A stretch of 64,000 nt of DNA, taken from Flavobacteriaceae bacterium PS02334. Lineage in GTDB: Bacteria > Bacteroidota > Bacteroidia > Flavobacteriales > Flavobacteriaceae. Location of the stretch: positions 682,001 to 746,000 of the forward strand of contig JASCOH010000001.1 in NCBI GenBank assembly GCA_029959295.1, written 5' to 3'. Shown here piece by piece: positions 3,234-10,164 of the stretch; position 1 is the first letter of the stretch, and each line of letters begins with the position of its first letter. The notes under the pieces are model-generated. The model was not told the origin of the DNA, ran no database searches, and saw only the letters and a list, made by a program, of their open reading frames with translations. Position numbers and translations under genes: made by a program.

Positions 3234-3779
3234 CTATTGCTGTACTTCCAGCAAATTTATGCTTATTGCTTTCTCTTTTCCGAATTCATTTTGATAGGCT
3301 TCCAAAACTTCATCGCGCTTGTCTGAAACCTTGATGGGCAGTTTTTTTTCTTTTAAATCTTTGGCCTGCACGTCGCGAACAATACCGCTGAATTTCTTCT
3401 GCAACAAACCGCTTCCGTCAATTTCTATGTTTCCTATATAATATGCCTTGCCACTTTCAGGCACTGAAATGCTCGCATATCCGTCAGGGAGGTTTGCAGA
3501 ACCGTAAGGCGTGTAAACCAGCTTCAAAAAATGATTTCCTTTTGGCAATTTCATGACCATCATTCCGCTTTCGTCTAAACGATAAGCCAAAACGCCCTTG
3601 CTGTTTTCGTCAAAATAAATTTTAGAATTCTTCGTCACGTCTTTTCCACTGTTCAAGATCGAAAACTTTGCGATAATTACAGTTTCTGCTTCTGAAATCG
3701 TGTCTGTTTTAGAAAGCCTGTTTGAACCGCAGGAAGCTATTACGAATAAAACCAGACACATTGCTCCTATCTTTTTCAT
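3234..3779 (-). CDS. Lipoprotein of unknown function
   Basis: A 181-residue protein with a lipoprotein signal peptide: charged start, hydrophobic core and lipobox IASC with Cys17. It is probably anchored in the outer or inner membrane facing the periplasm. The mature part is beta-rich and contains a segment of the kind seen in DUF2846/PEGA-like proteins (AYRLDESGMMVMKLPKGNHFLKL), in which a short loop is followed by a strand ending in G-x-H. That resemblance is only suggestive. It is convergent with meaB (51-bp gap) and opens a long minus-strand run of accessory genes. Confidence 0.6.
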   Translation of the reverse strand: MKKIGAMCLVLFVIASCGSNRLSKTDTISEAETVIIAKFSILNSGKDVTKNSKIYFDENSKGVLAYRLDESGMMVMKLPKGNHFLKLVYTPYGSANLPDGYASISVPESGKAYYIGNIEIDGSGLLQKKFSGIVRDVQAKDLKEKKLPIKVSDKRDEVLEAYQNEFGKEKAISINLLEVQQ

Positions 3780-3860
3780 TGCACTCTATTTGATAGGCTA
3801 ATTTACCATTTTTATTTCACTGCGCCCCTATCTTCTTGTTTTACAGAAGCAATTCTTTTT

Positions 3861-4073
3861 TTATTGCTTCTCAAAATCACAAAGTGTATACCCCAGCTTC
3901 TGCGCTTCTTCCATCGTGACGTGGCTTACTTCATGCTTGCAGTTGTTTAAGCCGTCGCACGTTTCAGAATAATGATATTTAGCCGCAATCTGGCTTTTGC
4001 AGATGTAGACCCGGTTTTCTTTTACCGACGCACAGGAAACAAAAAGGGCAAGCAAAATGTATTTTTTAATCAT
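3861..4073 (-). CDS. Small secreted Cys/His-rich protein, copy B
   Basis: A 70-residue protein with an N-terminal hydrophobic signal. VSC at residues 12-14 could serve as a lipobox. The mature domain has the pattern Y-I-C, then KYHYSETCDGLNNCKH, then E-A-x-x-x-G-x-x-x-C. The Cys and His spacing (C-x(5)-C-x-H) suggests disulfides or metal binding. It is paralogous to the protein at 4088-4291, whose stop is 14 bp upstream of this start, so the two are probably a tandem duplication in one transcript. Similar YH..C.GL..C patterns occur as tails on secreted nucleases and other exported proteins. The function is unknown. Confidence 0.65.
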   Translation of the reverse strand: MIKKYILLALFVSCASVKENRVYICKSQIAAKYHYSETCDGLNNCKHEVSHVTMEEAQKLGYTLCDFEKQ

Positions 4074-4087
4074 AAGCTGTTTTTAAA

Positions 4088-4291
4088 TCAATCTTCCCAA
4101 CCGCAAAGTCCCAACCCTAATCCCTTAGCTTCTCTTAGCGAGGTTTTAACTATTTTGTGCTTGCAATTCGAAAGCCCGCGACAGGTTTCTGAATAATGAT
4201 ATTTCTTTGCGCCTTTGTTGCCACAGATGTAGACTTTGCTTTCTGTAAAGGAGGTTAGGGAAATTAGGAGGAATAATAGAAAGTATTTCAT
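4088..4291 (-). CDS. Small secreted Cys/His-rich protein, copy A
   Basis: A 67-residue paralogue of the protein at 3861-4073. After a signal peptide (about residues 1-18) it shows VYIC, KYHYSETCRGLSNCKH, then SLREAKGLGLGLCGWE. The core YHYSETC.GL.NCKH is the same in both copies. Its start codon is 1 bp downstream of the stop of the TPR protein at 4293-5243, so translation is likely coupled. The function is unknown. The conserved Cys and His argue for a small disulfide-bonded or zinc-binding fold in the periplasm. Confidence 0.65.
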   Translation of the reverse strand: MKYFLLFLLISLTSFTESKVYICGNKGAKKYHYSETCRGLSNCKHKIVKTSLREAKGLGLGLCGWED

Positions 4292-4292
4292 A

Positions 4293-5243
4293 TTATTTAA
4301 TTTCTAATACAATCAATTCTCTAATATTTGATGCTCCTGCAAGATTAGGAATTATTCTTATGAGATTATCTAAATCTTTTACCACTTCGCTAAAAACATA
4401 AGAAGGATTAGGTTGTTTTTTTATTAATGTAATTGCGTCAATATAGACATCCATAGCTTCAGATTGTTTTCCACTTACTAATAATGATAATGCTTTGTTT
4501 GCATTTACCCATCCCCATTTATAAAATTCATTTGCCTTATCACTATATTCTATACACTTTGCATAATTCCCATTTTCATATTCTTTCCATCCTAGCCCTC
4601 CATATAATTCTGCTTTCTTTTGTTCATCTGACTTCTCAACTAGTGATGTGTTTTTTACAATTGCAACAACTTCAATTGAAATATTTACTCCTTCAAAAGA
4701 ACTAGGATTTCTTAATCCCAAATATACTGTTCCTTTGGTAATATCGTCAATCCTCACTGTTGCCTGTTTAGTGTTATTAGCAGATCCTTCCAAAGCATAA
4801 CTAAAAGTACCTCCTAGCAAATTAAGATCTGCTTTATTTATAAATTTATCGATATTGTTTCTATCACATAAAAAAATATCTATTCCACTAGAACCGCTTG
4901 GTATATTAATTGTTTTTATAGCCTGTTGTGCTAATGCAGAGCTACCTGCTGAATAAGTTTGGCTTGAGTAGAGAACCACAAGCTGTGTAGCCAACATTAA
5001 TGTTTTAATGCCACTTTTACCTAAACTTGTTGAAAAACTATAATACCATTCAATAGTATTTGGTGGTAAATCAATTTTAATAATTTCTCTAGACTTACCT
5101 CCAAATGATGCGTTTGAACCACTATTGAGATAAATTTGCCTGTTTTCAATTATTGTTTTTGGTTCATATTTCACAACAGTTTCTTGAGCTATTATCTGTG
5201 AGGCAACTAAAAACAATAATAGTAAAGTAAATATCCTTTTCAT
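4293..5243 (-). CDS. Secreted protein with C-terminal TPR-like repeats
   Basis: A 316-residue exported protein with a clear signal peptide (about 1-19, ending SQIIAQ). Residues 20-200 are beta-rich and of no recognised family. Residues about 205-275 read as two tetratricopeptide-like helix pairs (LYGGLGWKEYENGNYAKCIEYSDKAN and ANKALSLLVSGKQSEAMDVY), a protein-binding scaffold. It is probably periplasmic. It lies in the A+T-rich block and heads the short run with the two mini-proteins downstream. The name rests only on the TPR-like helices. Confidence 0.6.
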   Translation of the reverse strand: MKRIFTLLLLFLVASQIIAQETVVKYEPKTIIENRQIYLNSGSNASFGGKSREIIKIDLPPNTIEWYYSFSTSLGKSGIKTLMLATQLVVLYSSQTYSAGSSALAQQAIKTINIPSGSSGIDIFLCDRNNIDKFINKADLNLLGGTFSYALEGSANNTKQATVRIDDITKGTVYLGLRNPSSFEGVNISIEVVAIVKNTSLVEKSDEQKKAELYGGLGWKEYENGNYAKCIEYSDKANEFYKWGWVNANKALSLLVSGKQSEAMDVYIDAITLIKKQPNPSYVFSEVVKDLDNLIRIIPNLAGASNIRELIVLEIK

Positions 5244-5323
5244 TATTTTTATATTTATTGTAAATCTTTTAATAACATCTAAGCAACTATTATCAATACA
5301 AGTTTATTTCATTTTCTTTTTTA

Positions 5324-5404
5324 CTATGATAATTTTGTTACAGTATTTATACTCATAACTTCTGCTATGATTTCTTCAGCACAATATGGACAGGTTCTTG
5401 TCAT
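5324..5404 (-). pseudogene. Fragment or micro-ORF with half a zinc ribbon
   Basis: A 26-codon minus-strand ORF begins MTRTCPYCAEEI, the usual first half of a CxxC...CxxC zinc ribbon, then runs out without the second CxxC and stops. It sits alone in the 179-bp gap between two secreted-protein genes. The simplest reading is the remnant of a truncated gene. A functional micropeptide cannot be excluded. Confidence 0.35.
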
Positions 5405-5422
5405 ATTAATCTTTTTAAATTA

Positions 5423-5989
5423 TTATCTTTTTGCCTGCAGATATTTTAAAGCTGTCACTACCTTAGGAATATCTTTAACCCTCGCCTCAGTCCAAAAATA
5501 TTTATCAGGAAAATTAGAGTAATTTAAAATCACAGAGAATACCTGTGTGTTATTATATATCTCGAATTTAAGTGTCAGTTCTTCACAATTAAAAATATAT
5601 TTTAAAGTTTTCTTTTTCCCTGCGGATGATTCAAGATTTGGTATTACATAATTTTCAAACCAAATTACTAAATCATCTATTTCTTCCATACCTACCCAAG
5701 CAACTTCTTTTGTTGAAACGCTAGCCATTCCTTGTTGTCCAATAATATAAACAGATTCTACTTGAAGTCCAAGCATTTTAGTATTCATTTTTAGATCTGT
5801 AATTTCTGATGGATAAAAACTAACTGTCTCTCCAAATCCTGATTTAAAAATTGCTTTCTCATTTTCATCCATGTTAATTTGGACATAAGAAGAACGGTTT
5901 ATAAATTCTGAAGCTGTAGAGAGTTTATGCTCTTGGGAGCTAACACATAATGTCATACACAATAAAACAACAGTTAAAATCTTTTTCAT
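5423..5989 (-). CDS. Secreted protein of unknown function
   Basis: A 188-residue protein with a signal peptide of about 18 residues ending in VSSQ. The rest alternates short strands with charged turns and shows no motif that I recognise. The start is 23 bp after the stop of the PIN-domain gene, so it could be the third gene of that transcript. Its exported nature, however, makes it an unlikely direct partner of the cytoplasmic ATPase and nuclease. Codon and base use are A+T-rich like the genes upstream. Confidence 0.55.
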   Translation of the reverse strand: MKKILTVVLLCMTLCVSSQEHKLSTASEFINRSSYVQINMDENEKAIFKSGFGETVSFYPSEITDLKMNTKMLGLQVESVYIIGQQGMASVSTKEVAWVGMEEIDDLVIWFENYVIPNLESSAGKKKTLKYIFNCEELTLKFEIYNNTQVFSVILNYSNFPDKYFWTEARVKDIPKVVTALKYLQAKR

Positions 5990-6012
5990 AGTATATTAAA
6001 TTTATATTTCAA

Positions 6013-7050
6013 TTATATCAATCCTAAATCTTTAACAATTGATACTAATTGTACAACATTTTCAGCTTTAAAATATATTTTAAGTTTATTTATTTGTTTT
6101 TCAATATGTGAGAGACTTGAGTAATGACCAACTTTTTCAAACTCTTTTCTAATATCCTCTATGTTAAGCCCTTTCGATAATAATTTTAATAACTCTAAAT
6201 CATATACATCAAAGTCCATAGATTTATTTAATGAAAAGTAATTATAATCCATTTTTGAATAAAAAAGACCTTTCTTATAGGAAAAATCTAAAGATTCATT
6301 TAAAGATATTTTATTAAGCTCTTTATTGCTAGGTATTGAAATGACTTTTTCTTCTTTATTAAAACTTTTCAATGCATCTGATAGCTTATTATAAACCTTA
6401 ATTTCAAGCTTTGGATTTCTTTTTAACAAATCATTATTCAAGATAGGGTTAAGATATAGATTATCCTTATGTACTGTAAAATAATCTCGATCTGCAGAAA
6501 TTATCCATAATTTATTAACTTTTGAAATTCTATTTAAAAGCATCTCCCAAGAAAGTTGATCACCTAAAGTATCAGCTCTTTTTCCTGGCGGATTACCAAT
6601 TTCTTTTCTAAATCTAGCTGCATTAATTTCTATTTCAGTTGGTAAATGAGCATTATTATATAATTTGAGTAAAGTTTTTGATATTACATCTTTTGAATAT
6701 GAAATATCAGAAAGGAGTTCTTCAAAAATATGAAATAGTTCTTCATTTGAATTAAGTATTTGGTTTTCAAATCCTTTCCTTTTAATATTCCATTCTGATA
6801 ATTTTATAAAACTATCATCGCCAAAATGTTCTGGTAATAATGTTTTAATCAATGAAACTTGTTTAATGTAATTATCAATAGATTGTTGAAAAACACTTAA
6901 TTTATTTCTATCTATTTCATTTTTAAATTGCTCAGTAAAAAATATTTTATCTTTTAATTCAATAATTGATTTTAATAGCTTTTTAAATTCTGGTCTATTA
7001 GAATTATAAAAAACTAGATAAATATTTGCATCGATGTATAATAAATTCAT
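6013..7050 (-). CDS. PIN-domain nuclease fused to a LuxR-type helix-turn-helix
   Basis: A 345-residue cytoplasmic protein of two parts. Residues 1-200 form a PIN-like RNase domain: D7 in LLYIDAN, E45 in FKNEIDRN, D164 in LGDQLSWEM and D187/D189 in ISADRDYF give the expected acidic metal-binding set. This resembles the large DUF4935-type PIN branch rather than small VapC toxins. Residues about 283-343 match a LuxR/NarL C-terminal DNA-binding domain (ELLKLLSKGLNIEDI, then SSLSHIEKQINKLK). It lies 24 bp downstream of the ATPase-TOPRIM gene and is surely co-transcribed. A probable role is RNA or DNA cleavage and self-regulation inside a defence or stress module. That role is inference. Confidence 0.7.
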   Translation of the reverse strand: MNLLYIDANIYLVFYNSNRPEFKKLLKSIIELKDKIFFTEQFKNEIDRNKLSVFQQSIDNYIKQVSLIKTLLPEHFGDDSFIKLSEWNIKRKGFENQILNSNEELFHIFEELLSDISYSKDVISKTLLKLYNNAHLPTEIEINAARFRKEIGNPPGKRADTLGDQLSWEMLLNRISKVNKLWIISADRDYFTVHKDNLYLNPILNNDLLKRNPKLEIKVYNKLSDALKSFNKEEKVISIPSNKELNKISLNESLDFSYKKGLFYSKMDYNYFSLNKSMDFDVYDLELLKLLSKGLNIEDIRKEFEKVGHYSSLSHIEKQINKLKIYFKAENVVQLVSIVKDLGLI

Positions 7051-7074
7051 TTTTAAATAAATGGTAAGTAAATA

Positions 7075-8913
7075 TTATCTATTCTTTTTTATTCTATTAA
7101 TATTAACCTCAATAAAATTCAGGAGTTTATCTATATTTTTATTTGTCTGTTCATTAAATTCATAACTGATTTTACTCATTAAATTTTCTTGTATTGCTCT
7201 ATTAAATTGTTTTTTCAAATATTTATCAGAGTTTGGAAATTTACTTTTTTGAAAAGACAACAAATCTTCATTAAAAAAAATCTTTTCTAATTCAAAACCA
7301 TCCCATACTAAATCTACATCTGACAAGACAAAAGTTTTATCTTCTAAAAAGATTCCAAACTTTTCAATATATCTTTCTTTTTGCGTATTGCCAGCTTTAT
7401 CTGAATCTAATAATATAATAAAAGGTTTACCCCATCCCATATATAAACTAATCAAACTGTCAAGATTTCCTGAGCCAGTACTGGGAGCTAAATTAAGATC
7501 ATATTTTTTATCAAAAATTATTTCATTAAAATATGTTAAAGCATAAAAATCATTTTTACCTTCAATAAATATACAATTTGGAATCATTTCAAGATTACTT
7601 GGAGTATAATCTAATACATCTAGAATAGGTTGGAAATAAGCAGTATTATGCGGATGATTTGTAGCAAAATCCCTATAAGTAGAAATAGATATTTTAGTAG
7701 CATCACTATTATATATTTCGGGTTTGTCAAGATTCAGTCCTTCGTTTTTTACTACGTATGTGCTTTCAAGCCAATTTGAATTTATTAAATGATGACTATG
7801 TGTAGTATATATAATTTTACAATTTGTCATTAAATTTTCAAAGCTTTTAAGTAATTGTTTCTGTGCTGTAGAATGTAAATTAGATGCCGGCTCATCAAAT
7901 AGAAAAATTACATTTTTGGGAGAATCTTTTCTAAATGGTCTAAACTGAGTAAATAATAAAAAAGTAAAAAACCATCTAAAACCTAGGGAACGTTCATTAA
8001 TTTGGTAAATACCATCCGTTGACTCTATTTCAAACTCTAAATAGATACCCTTTTCATCTTTATCACATTTTATTAGAACTTCTGTATCTTTTATTTCTCT
8101 TTTAAAAATTTCGTTCCATGCATTAAATACTGTATCAGTAACTTTTTTATTCATTTTTTTCAAAAGAATATCTAAATTCCTAGAATCATTTTTATCTAAA
8201 GCTGATCCTTCATATCTATCAATTATATGAGTTTTAATATTTGTATCATTATCCAATGAAAATAAAATATCTTGTATCAATTCACAATAAAATTCTTGCT
8301 TTAAATCTTTTTCCTTTTCTAAAGCTTCACTTTTTAAATAAATTTTTGATGGAAAATCAAATAGAAAATTTGGAAAATACAATATACTTGGAATTAGAGA
8401 TTTACAAAAATTACTAATTAAAGTATTTGGTTCGCCAGATATTCTTACAAAATCAGTATCAGTAAGTAATAATTTTCCAGATAGACCTGTCCAAGTTGAT
8501 TTTAAATTTACAAACTTTGAATCTTTAAAATTATAGTTTTTATAATAAGTTAGTTTATTTACTTTTTTTAAACTTTTATAGATAGTTCGCCTTTTTGCAA
8601 AATTATTTATGCTTTTAAAATCATCATCATCTACACTTATATCAACCTCAAGTGATACTGTTCCATTAAAATTATCCCTCTTACTTATAGGAATCAAATT
8701 ATTATAATCTTCTATAGTTGCGCCTGGCAAATCTAATGCATTTAAACCCTCATTTTTTGGTGTAAAAAGATTCATAGCTTCTAATATTGTAGTTTTTCCA
8801 CTTTCATTCAAACCTATTAAACTATATATATTAGCTTCAGGACTTCTATTAAGATTAATTTCTATATGCTCAATTCCTTTAAAATTTTTTATAATAAATT
8901 TTTCGTATTTCAT
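7075..8913 (-). CDS. OLD-like ATP-dependent nuclease: ABC/SMC-type ATPase plus TOPRIM domain
   Basis: A 612-residue protein built like OLD-family nucleases. At the N-terminus FKGIEHIEINL leads to Walker A GLNESGKT (34-41). The ABC-like signature region NERSLGFRW is at 306-314, Walker B VIFLFDEP at 335-342 and the switch histidine in TTHS at 370-373. The C-terminal half has TOPRIM features: the acidic FIEGKNDFYAL (E451) and the metal-binding LLDSDKAG (501-508). Relatives (OLD, GajA, AriA-type ATPases) act in phage defence. It is the first gene of a unit with the PIN-HTH gene. The base composition is markedly A+T-rich, in keeping with transfer. Confidence 0.85.
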   Translation of the reverse strand: MKYEKFIIKNFKGIEHIEINLNRSPEANIYSLIGLNESGKTTILEAMNLFTPKNEGLNALDLPGATIEDYNNLIPISKRDNFNGTVSLEVDISVDDDDFKSINNFAKRRTIYKSLKKVNKLTYYKNYNFKDSKFVNLKSTWTGLSGKLLLTDTDFVRISGEPNTLISNFCKSLIPSILYFPNFLFDFPSKIYLKSEALEKEKDLKQEFYCELIQDILFSLDNDTNIKTHIIDRYEGSALDKNDSRNLDILLKKMNKKVTDTVFNAWNEIFKREIKDTEVLIKCDKDEKGIYLEFEIESTDGIYQINERSLGFRWFFTFLLFTQFRPFRKDSPKNVIFLFDEPASNLHSTAQKQLLKSFENLMTNCKIIYTTHSHHLINSNWLESTYVVKNEGLNLDKPEIYNSDATKISISTYRDFATNHPHNTAYFQPILDVLDYTPSNLEMIPNCIFIEGKNDFYALTYFNEIIFDKKYDLNLAPSTGSGNLDSLISLYMGWGKPFIILLDSDKAGNTQKERYIEKFGIFLEDKTFVLSDVDLVWDGFELEKIFFNEDLLSFQKSKFPNSDKYLKKQFNRAIQENLMSKISYEFNEQTNKNIDKLLNFIEVNINRIKKNR

Positions 8914-8972
8914 TTTTTAATTTTAATAATAAACAATCAAAAATTTTTTCTTATATTAAAAATATTATTTTC

Positions 8973-9004
8973 CAAACATACTCTTTATTCCAACACCTTA
9001 ACAA
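8973..9004 (-). promoter_or_regulatory. Promoter of the ATPase-TOPRIM / PIN unit
   Basis: Read on the minus strand, TTG (complement of 9002-9004) is followed after 21 bp by TATGTTTG (complement of 8973-8980). This matches the flavobacterial TTG-N17-23-TAnnTTTG promoter. Transcription would start near 8966, leaving a leader of about 53 nt before the ATG at 8913. Confidence 0.6.
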
Positions 9005-9050
9005 AAAATTCACATTTCAACTGCAAGATTAGGTATAATTACCTACTCCA

Positions 9051-9070
9051 TTTTACGGTTTTCCGTAAAA
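9051..9070. promoter_or_regulatory. Perfect palindrome upstream of the ATPase/PIN promoter
   Basis: TTTTACGG-TTTT-CCGTAAAA is a perfect 8-bp inverted repeat with a 4-bp spacer. It lies about 47 bp upstream of the -33 element of the ATPase/PIN unit. No gene covers it and no U-run follows on the minus strand. It is a plausible dimer binding site, for example for the LuxR-type domain carried by the PIN protein. That link is inferred. Confidence 0.5.
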
Positions 9071-9187
9071 ACCTGTAAAAATTTTACAAATTCATCATTC
9101 TTTAAACATTTTAGAAAATCTATTTATAATAGTTTTCAATCTAGTAAAAGCTAACCTCAACTTAATTACCTTAAATTCAACAAAAAC

Positions 9188-9224
9188 AAAAAACCACGCT
9201 ATCCATAAATTACAGATAGCGTGG
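9188..9224 (-). terminator. Intrinsic terminator of the helical carboxypeptidase-regulatory protein gene
   Basis: CCACGCTATC (9194-9203) pairs with GATAGCGTGG (9215-9224). The A-rich stretch to the left becomes a U-run on the minus strand, so it ends transcription of the gene at 9262-10164. Confidence 0.8.
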
Positions 9225-9261
9225 CTATAAAAAGAATATTTTATTTTAAAGAACGGCGTGC

Positions 9262-10164
9262 TTACACCTTCTCCGGCTTTAAAGCAATAGCAAAAACATT
9301 AATCTTCCCCTGCTTTATCAAAACGCTGGCTTGCGGGGCCTGTTCAAATCCATCAGCCATGACTTCAAGATTGTAAGTTCCAAGGCGCATGTTGCCGATT
9401 TGAAATTTTCCGTTGGCATCGGTCATTGCCGTGAAAGTGTCAATGGCAACGGTTGCCCCTTCGATTGGCATTTTGTCCATGATGTTGACAATTTTGCCCT
9501 TCAGCTGTGTCTGCCCTTTTGGCGGATCGATTATCACACGGTTCGCCAGGTAAGTACTCACAAAGTCTGGGTTGGTTGCTTTTAAAATGACGATGCTTTT
9601 GTCCATCTGGTTTTTTAAGATGGCGTTGGTGTCTTTCATCATCACCTTGATATTTTCGCGGATGGTCTTTTTGACCGCCGCCGCATTTTTAGGGTTCGGC
9701 ACTTTGAGGCTGTAGGCTTCAATTTTTCCTAAAAACTGGTCGAGCATTTCGCTGGTGATGCCATAGCCTGCCAGACTGGCTAAATTTTCTACGCCCGAAG
9801 CGTGGATGTTTCTTACCCTTGGCGCCAGCCCGTCGTCTTTGGTCTGCACGAGCTTTGAATAAGAGAAATTGACTTCGTTTTTCAGCTGGCTGTTGCCTGT
9901 CGTTTCTGCATAGGCAAAAATAGGCGACGCAATTTGTGAGGCAAATTGGCAAAGGTCTTTTTTAGCTTCGCTTTTGCCCACCGTGATTCCCTTGGTGACC
10001 AAATCTTCTTTCTGCATCGCTTCGATGAGGTTGGTGATTTGAGTTTTGAAAAGAACAAATGAGGCTTGAAATGCGGGAACGAGTGCCACGATTTGTGGGT
10101 TGGCATCTCCGTGGCTTTCAACTGCTCTAAACATACTTAATTGAGCTTCTTGCATGGCATTCAT
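9262..10164 (-). CDS. Helical protein with C-terminal carboxypeptidase-regulatory-like domain
   Basis: A 300-residue protein with no signal peptide or membrane segment. Residues 1-210 are almost wholly alpha-helical and contain a segment GYGITSEMLDQFLGKIEAY followed by a long helix pair ending KATNPDFVSTYLANRVI. Residues about 213-297 are a carboxypeptidase-regulatory-like beta-sandwich (LKGKIVNIMDKMPIEGATVA, then a TDANGKF turn, then GTYNLEVMADGFE). The helical part resembles the protein at 55687-56373, so the two look like distant paralogues. The likely promoter is TATGTTTG (complement of 10202-10209). The function is unknown. A beta-sandwich of this type without an export signal is unusual. 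Confidence 0.65.
   Translation of the reverse strand: MNAMQEAQLSMFRAVESHGDANPQIVALVPAFQASFVLFKTQITNLIEAMQKEDLVTKGITVGKSEAKKDLCQFASQIASPIFAYAETTGNSQLKNEVNFSYSKLVQTKDDGLAPRVRNIHASGVENLASLAGYGITSEMLDQFLGKIEAYSLKVPNPKNAAAVKKTIRENIKVMMKDTNAILKNQMDKSIVILKATNPDFVSTYLANRVIIDPPKGQTQLKGKIVNIMDKMPIEGATVAIDTFTAMTDANGKFQIGNMRLGTYNLEVMADGFEQAPQASVLIKQGKINVFAIALKPEKV

Follow-up and report, generated by a model that had tools for sequence, protein, structure and literature searches.

A two-metal TOPRIM site is the presumed centre of DNA cleavage in OLD proteins, according to the accessible portion of PMC10568477. In class 1 OLD nucleases, among them P2 Old and Thermus OLD (6p74), an ABC ATPase is fused to the TOPRIM domain. 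Other systems are built from two genes. PARIS (AriA/AriB) has a separate TOPRIM nuclease, AriB, and Gabija (GajA/GajB) contains a UvrD-like helicase. OLD-type ATPases paired with PIN nucleases have also been published, in BREX loci, where PIN replaces TOPRIM in the modules described in the available text (PMC12839542). Archaeal class 5 OLD proteins, in turn, appear not to act in defence, as far as the accessible part of PMC12796447 states.

The window analysed here is the whole stretch of 64,000 nucleotides from Flavobacteriaceae bacterium PS02334. On its minus strand, the gene of an OLD-family ATPase-TOPRIM protein (7075..8913, 612 aa) is the first of a pair. It is followed after a gap of 24 bp, on the same strand, by the gene of a PIN (DUF4935/PIN_8-like) nuclease with a response-regulator-type HTH tail (6013..7050, 345 aa), hereinafter PIN-HTH. 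The window OLD protein has the fused ABC ATPase and TOPRIM of class 1. Standing as a single gene is a criterion of that class, and several OLD relatives do look like single genes, whereas the window OLD gene lies 24 bp before PIN-HTH and shares an operon with it.

The likeness to the BREX modules is an OLD-type ATPase beside a PIN nuclease. Unlike in those modules, the window OLD protein keeps its TOPRIM and the window PIN carries a regulator tail, and no BREX protein was found among the six proteins scanned with Pfam (3237 to 10164). The same six proteins include neither the UvrD-like helicase of Gabija, whose GajA has the ATPase-TOPRIM architecture in common with the window OLD, nor the reverse transcriptase component of the OLD retron. 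AriA of PARIS is the best PADLOC match of the OLD protein, over residues 1-377, which form the ATPase part; a defence-profile search had been proposed by an earlier sequence-only reading of this DNA. The pair is not PARIS, because its TOPRIM is fused and its partner is a PIN protein. Flavobacterium response regulators with DUF5932-like tails share the tail and a probable binding site with PIN-HTH, but have a receiver domain where the window protein has a PIN domain. The sequence-only reading knew of no described system that joins an OLD-type protein to a PIN-HTH fusion; as far as OLD and PIN are concerned, the BREX modules make this out of date, and the pairing is of a kind already known. New are the PIN domain in the receiver's place and the promoter code described below.

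An OLD-family nuclease gene in an A+T-rich accessory operon

The OLD protein contains an ABC-type ATPase in which Walker A, signature, Walker B and H-loop are all present, and a C-terminal TOPRIM domain with E451, D503 and D505, so that every motif named in the sequence-only reading was found. In a profile comparison the best solved match is 6p74, with the best stretch at residues 214-509; the single-sequence Pfam match to TOPRIM is below the cut-off. It adds one more member to an already known family.

OLD matches are present in 19 of the 199 genomes of the genus; apart from the own genome, only two of them (G079 and G120, 46-47%) have close ones. At 1e-40, matches were found in 6 of 395 genomes of the class, the own genome included. 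The neighbours of the relatives vary. Specifically, an AAA_21 ATPase comes after the relative that is closest (L079, 61%) and an Mrr nuclease after another (L056). A third (L080) is embedded in a type I restriction operon, with restriction genes of that type on both sides. By eye, L055 and L078 seem to be single genes, and L180 looks single as well. Scans of viral contigs with the OLD protein alone, the PIN protein alone or A1 found no relative; 29 OLD relatives were recovered from viral contigs. One of these (L180, 40%) lies between a gene without assigned family and a phage integrase gene. Another (L188) is flanked by genes that are BREX-like by eye, and thus not all OLD relatives are single. 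The clade of the window OLD protein lacks a fixed partner, and its members often seem to be on their own.

The relatives on viral contigs, together with the type I restriction and Mrr neighbours (L080 and L056), make a defence role of the OLD protein plausible. Judged from its family, its patchy spread, the low GC of its gene, the viral relatives and the restriction-gene neighbours, such a role is likely.

The OLD-PIN locus is an A+T-rich accessory operon. Its promoter is separated from the upstream gene (9262-10164) by a 16-pair terminator-like hairpin (9192-9226), so that the operon probably starts on its own. An empty-site test with the upstream gene, covering 10 relatives, gave only partial matches outside the own genome. 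At the other end, a third gene of 188 aa on the minus strand (5423..5989) begins 23 bp past the PIN gene and is perhaps co-transcribed with it. The products of its family (L208-L223) are 188 aa long and secreted-looking, and its relatives have, among their neighbours, an AAA_15 ATPase at L212 and a SIR2_2-STALD protein at L217. Two further same-strand genes (3234-5243) encode a 316-aa protein, in an A+T-rich stretch, and a 181-aa protein, at about 38% GC; neither product has a confident Pfam family.

A PIN protein with a response-regulator-type tail

The PIN domain of PIN-HTH spans about residues 1-235 (6346..7050, minus strand), and its acidic quartet D7, E45, D164 and D187 is conserved. In Pfam, PIN_8 scores 23.0 bits against a cut-off of 26.1, a cut-off that the relative L064 passes. 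Fold comparison gives a VapC-like fold with VapC matches. The tail, residues 266-345 (6016..6255, minus strand), is homologous to output domains of Flavobacterium response regulators; its model aligns to LuxR/NarL-type output domains and has the HTH fold of that class. In these fold comparisons many of the matches are unrelated long helices at similar Z, and sequence profiles of the tail and of the PIN domain gave no convincing solved structure. The description of the second gene as a PIN nuclease with a LuxR-type tail, 24 bp after the OLD gene, holds.

Many Flavobacterium proteins match the last 80 residues of PIN-HTH. The whole PIN-HTH protein is matched in 148 of 249 genomes of the genus at 1e-3, and nearly all of the matches listed span only about its last third. 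At 25 tail loci, the matching proteins are 219-223 aa long, with one exception of 116 aa, and 20 of the 25 regulators match Pfam Response_reg at 0.01 or better. The window tail is 42-60% identical to 15 response-regulator tails, its known relatives being the Flavobacterium regulators with DUF5932-like tails. No receiver domain is present in PIN-HTH; the PIN domain occupies its place.

The PIN domain itself is found in 22 of 398 genomes of the genus. Close relatives sit after a kinase-regulator pair or after a DUF4145 gene. Specifically, in F. pectinovorum (L002) and F. defluvii (L003) a TPR histidine kinase gene and a regulator gene of this kind directly precede PIN-HTH. Other relatives, namely L064 and, in Agrobacterium, L069, have a cysteine-rich tail in place of the HTH. 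In a tail tree of 69 columns, the PIN tails of L002 and L003 group with their own regulators and the window tail lies elsewhere; on these 69 columns, the split suggests two captures or a swap.

Tail-less PIN proteins of about 250 aa, followed by a protein of about 110 aa, occur at L068, L092, L116, L118, L119 and L120, the small protein of L116, the one scanned, being a DUF1508 protein. On a 92-kb E. coli plasmid (L071) and six viral contigs (L144, L146, L147, L148, L149 and L152), which we take to be P1-like, a DUF4935-type PIN gene has the same surroundings; on the plasmid it adjoins a large gene annotated as N-6 DNA methylase.

The TACGG-N4-CCGTA site and its promoter code

The palindrome TACGGTTTTCCGTA (9051-9070), upstream of the OLD gene, contains the sequence TACGG-N4-CCGTA (9054..9067, minus strand), the probable binding site of the tail's family. 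Exactly 22 nt past the site lies the −7 box TAATCTTG (9024..9031, minus strand), with one mismatch to TAnnTTTG. The predicted transcription start is near 9019 on the minus strand, as calculated from the −7 box position in the available text of PMC9723704. A second, plain sigma-A-like promoter (8973..9005, minus strand) is closer to the gene and consists of TTTG at 9005-9002, 21 nt and TATGTTTG at 8980-8973; the TTTG is presumably its upstream element. The own promoter and upstream palindrome noticed in the sequence-only reading were thus both confirmed and proved the informative part of the locus. As a terminator, the palindrome finds no support among the eight terminator-like sites predicted, from which it is absent. 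A scan for sigma-70 promoters, whose consensus was not made for this phylum, called 58 sites where shuffled sequence had 40.

The exact site occurs at 20 of the 25 regulator loci, which hold 26 sites in 80,412 bp, and is absent from the other 5. Elsewhere, 94 other loci totalling 636,384 bp gave 4 sites, two of which are one site fetched twice, leaving three distinct. Of the spacer lengths 0-8, 4 is the sole one present, and no rearrangement of the five letters is found in the regulator loci. Across genomes, site density is 1.15 per Mb in the 112 genomes with the tail family versus 0.42 per Mb in the 86 without it; a control pattern gave 0.23 and 0.34 per Mb, respectively, in the same groups. 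The regulator and site loci all belong to a single genus and do not count as independent.

The −7 box is tied to the site at a fixed distance. Among 55 distinct sites (26 from regulator loci, 8 from the own genome and 21 from three other genomes), a TAnnTTTG box lies exactly 22 nt away in 44, perfect in 33 of these and with one mismatch in the rest; no other distance between 5 and 49 nt is shared by more than 5. By group, the 22-nt box is present at 26/26 regulator-locus sites, 5/8 own-genome sites and 13/21 sites of the three other genomes. This code of site, 22 nt and TAnnTTTG is tied to the Flavobacterium response-regulator family (L006-L033, L158-L177). Activators that touch RNA polymerase classically have their site centred at −41.5. 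With the −7 box at −12 to −5, its position in F. psychrophilum in the accessible portion of PMC9723704, the site extends from −48 to −35, which puts its centre at −41.5. The window promoter has the exact site at the exact 22-nt spacing. A repressor site is less favoured, because the fixed distance to the −7 box speaks for activation. Five spelt-out forms of the site turned up nowhere in the literature searched, a search that another notation would escape, and the papers listed for Flavobacterium with TACGG, LuxR and response regulator had nothing on it.

At L002 and L003, a site with one mismatch precedes the regulator-PIN pair, and the −7 box ends 57-58 bp before the regulator ATG. Even with two mismatches allowed, no site is present at seven loci that hold an OLD relative or a tail-less PIN protein (L055, L056, L064, L066, L078, L079 and L080). 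Since all three PIN-HTH operons found carry the site and none of the seven others does, the site goes with the tail rather than with OLD or PIN.

In the own genome, a profile of 18 tails has the PIN-HTH tail as its only strong match (1.1e-30), followed by two distant response regulators (L154 and L155, at 4e-4 and 3.5e-3). Eight exact sites occur there, more than in any of the 86 genomes without the tail family (at most 6); the reversed control pattern also occurs three times, so that some of the eight may be chance. Six of the eight have a −7 box at 21-23 nt, and the relaxed full pattern gave 21 matches versus 5 for the reversed control. Because no other close tail accompanies these eight sites, PIN-HTH is the best candidate for their reader, and we infer this role for it; the two distant response regulators could read them instead. 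Apart from OLD-PIN, the genes that own-genome sites of the code precede (loci L132, L135, L136 and L224-L244) include those of a C5 DNA methyltransferase, an HSDR_N protein, an AAA_5 protein that is McrB-like by eye, a 76-aa protein and several small secreted-looking proteins. At L003, genes similar by eye to the 76-aa and HSDR_N genes are also behind one-mismatch sites. As a genus-wide rule, a defence regulon is unsupported: the genes behind the 21 sites in G006, G075 and G013 are, by eye, mostly not defence genes.

Conservation and function of the OLD-PIN pair

PIN beside OLD recurs, and the window's own pair was not found again in the loci searched. The 14 loci fetched with OLD (L055-L063 and L078-L082, of which L081 ends 96 bp past its OLD gene and is visible on one side only) have no match to the PIN protein. 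Neither do the direct neighbours of the 29 viral-contig OLD relatives, several of whose contigs end at the OLD gene. Conversely, OLD finds no match at the three PIN relatives that are closest (57%). Among 22 PIN loci of the genus that were scanned, PIN was found in 21 (L123, without PIN in either scan, was left out of the count), with OLD within 1.5 kb in 2 of these, the window and G061. All 47 loci scanned, some of them the same place fetched twice, gave PIN in 46 and an OLD-like match within 1.5 kb in 3. L091, from the class sample and outside the genus loci, has a 395-aa OLD-like ATPase within 1.5 kb of its PIN, with one gene between. A conserved OLD-PIN pair is therefore unsupported, no second copy having appeared in the genus, class or viral-contig loci searched. 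The two genes are rarely adjacent, an outcome that the sequence-only reading had itself named as counting against its proposal. What stands of its candidate two-gene defence system are the parts and a plausible defence role of OLD; the claim of a new, fixed two-gene system is weak. An OLD gene beside PIN in 2 of 21 loci nevertheless probably exceeds what random neighbours would give, in agreement with the OLD-ABC and PIN modules of BREX loci in the accessible text of PMC12839542. The G061 locus (L066:5201-9019) has in a row a distant OLD protein (AAA_15 with OLD-like TOPRIM, 16% in alignment A5), a tail-less PIN_12 protein and an Abi_C protein, and is a better candidate for an OLD-PIN cassette.

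The probable tail site in the pair's own promoter suggests that PIN-HTH may switch the pair on and need not be a fixed immune partner. The tail of PIN-HTH would most likely bind TACGG-N4-CCGTA centred at −41.5 of the operon promoter, and the bound protein would activate this promoter. PIN-HTH would thus be the regulator of its own operon, the PIN domain replacing the receiver. Once the regulator is active, the OLD protein would be made and would cut invading DNA. We give an even chance to this reading, in which PIN-HTH, as activator of the operon that encodes it, governs an OLD nuclease gene. Its observed basis comprises the domains, the site at a fixed distance from the −7 box, and the association of site and tail. 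Against activation are the mismatch in the window's −7 box and the plain promoter nearer the gene. It is also unusual for an activator to keep a nuclease active site intact. At L002 and L003, where a response regulator is also present, PIN-HTH need not be the activator.

The two genes could instead form a two-part defence of the PARIS kind, in which OLD senses infection and releases or activates PIN, PIN cuts RNA and stops the cell, and the tail only sets the dose. The single operon with its 24-bp gap, the intact active sites of both proteins and the VapC-like PIN fold fit such a system, as do the distant OLD beside PIN_12 and Abi_C genes in G061 and the published BREX modules (PMC12839542). 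Yet the OLD protein retains its own TOPRIM, its close relatives look alone (L055, L078) or stand beside Mrr (L056), AAA_21 (L079) or type I restriction genes (L080), and what precedes the close PIN relatives is a kinase-regulator pair or a DUF4145 gene, which leaves this arrangement rather improbable. The two genes could also be together by accident, PIN-HTH belonging to a genus-wide general stress regulon with the OLD gene merely upstream of it. The kinase and regulator before PIN-HTH at L002 and L003 point that way, as do the many genes behind the site that look, by eye, like small secreted proteins. The third gene likewise has the site in some other species (within 400 bp upstream in 6 of 16 relatives, 4 exact and 2 with one mismatch); its two closest relatives (64-66%) are without a site within that distance. 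However, in the window the site immediately precedes the OLD gene, and a gap of 24 bp on the same strand separates OLD from PIN, so we consider an accident unlikely.

PIN domains are common toxins, and an addiction pair, with a PIN toxin regulating its own operon and OLD as an accessory, would suit the VapC matches, the fused HTH and self-regulation. But the neighbours of the PIN gene, 24 and 23 bp off, leave no room for a small same-strand antitoxin gene (the ORFs listed being of at least 80 aa), nuclease and DNA-binding part are a single protein and the site is at an activator position; this makes an addiction pair very improbable.

An extension of the reading with PIN-HTH as activator would make it a one-component immune regulator, whose PIN domain senses or cuts RNA of the infection and which switches on, from the shared −41.5 site, not only OLD but also the C5 DNA methyltransferase, McrB-like AAA_5 and HSDR_N genes. 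We regard this extension as speculative and doubtful.

If PIN-HTH does activate its own operon, an immune-type nuclease would have come under inducible control through the capture of a fused nuclease and regulator. The locus would then also provide a testable promoter code (site, 22 bp and −7 box) from which a response-regulator regulon may be read in Flavobacterium genomes.
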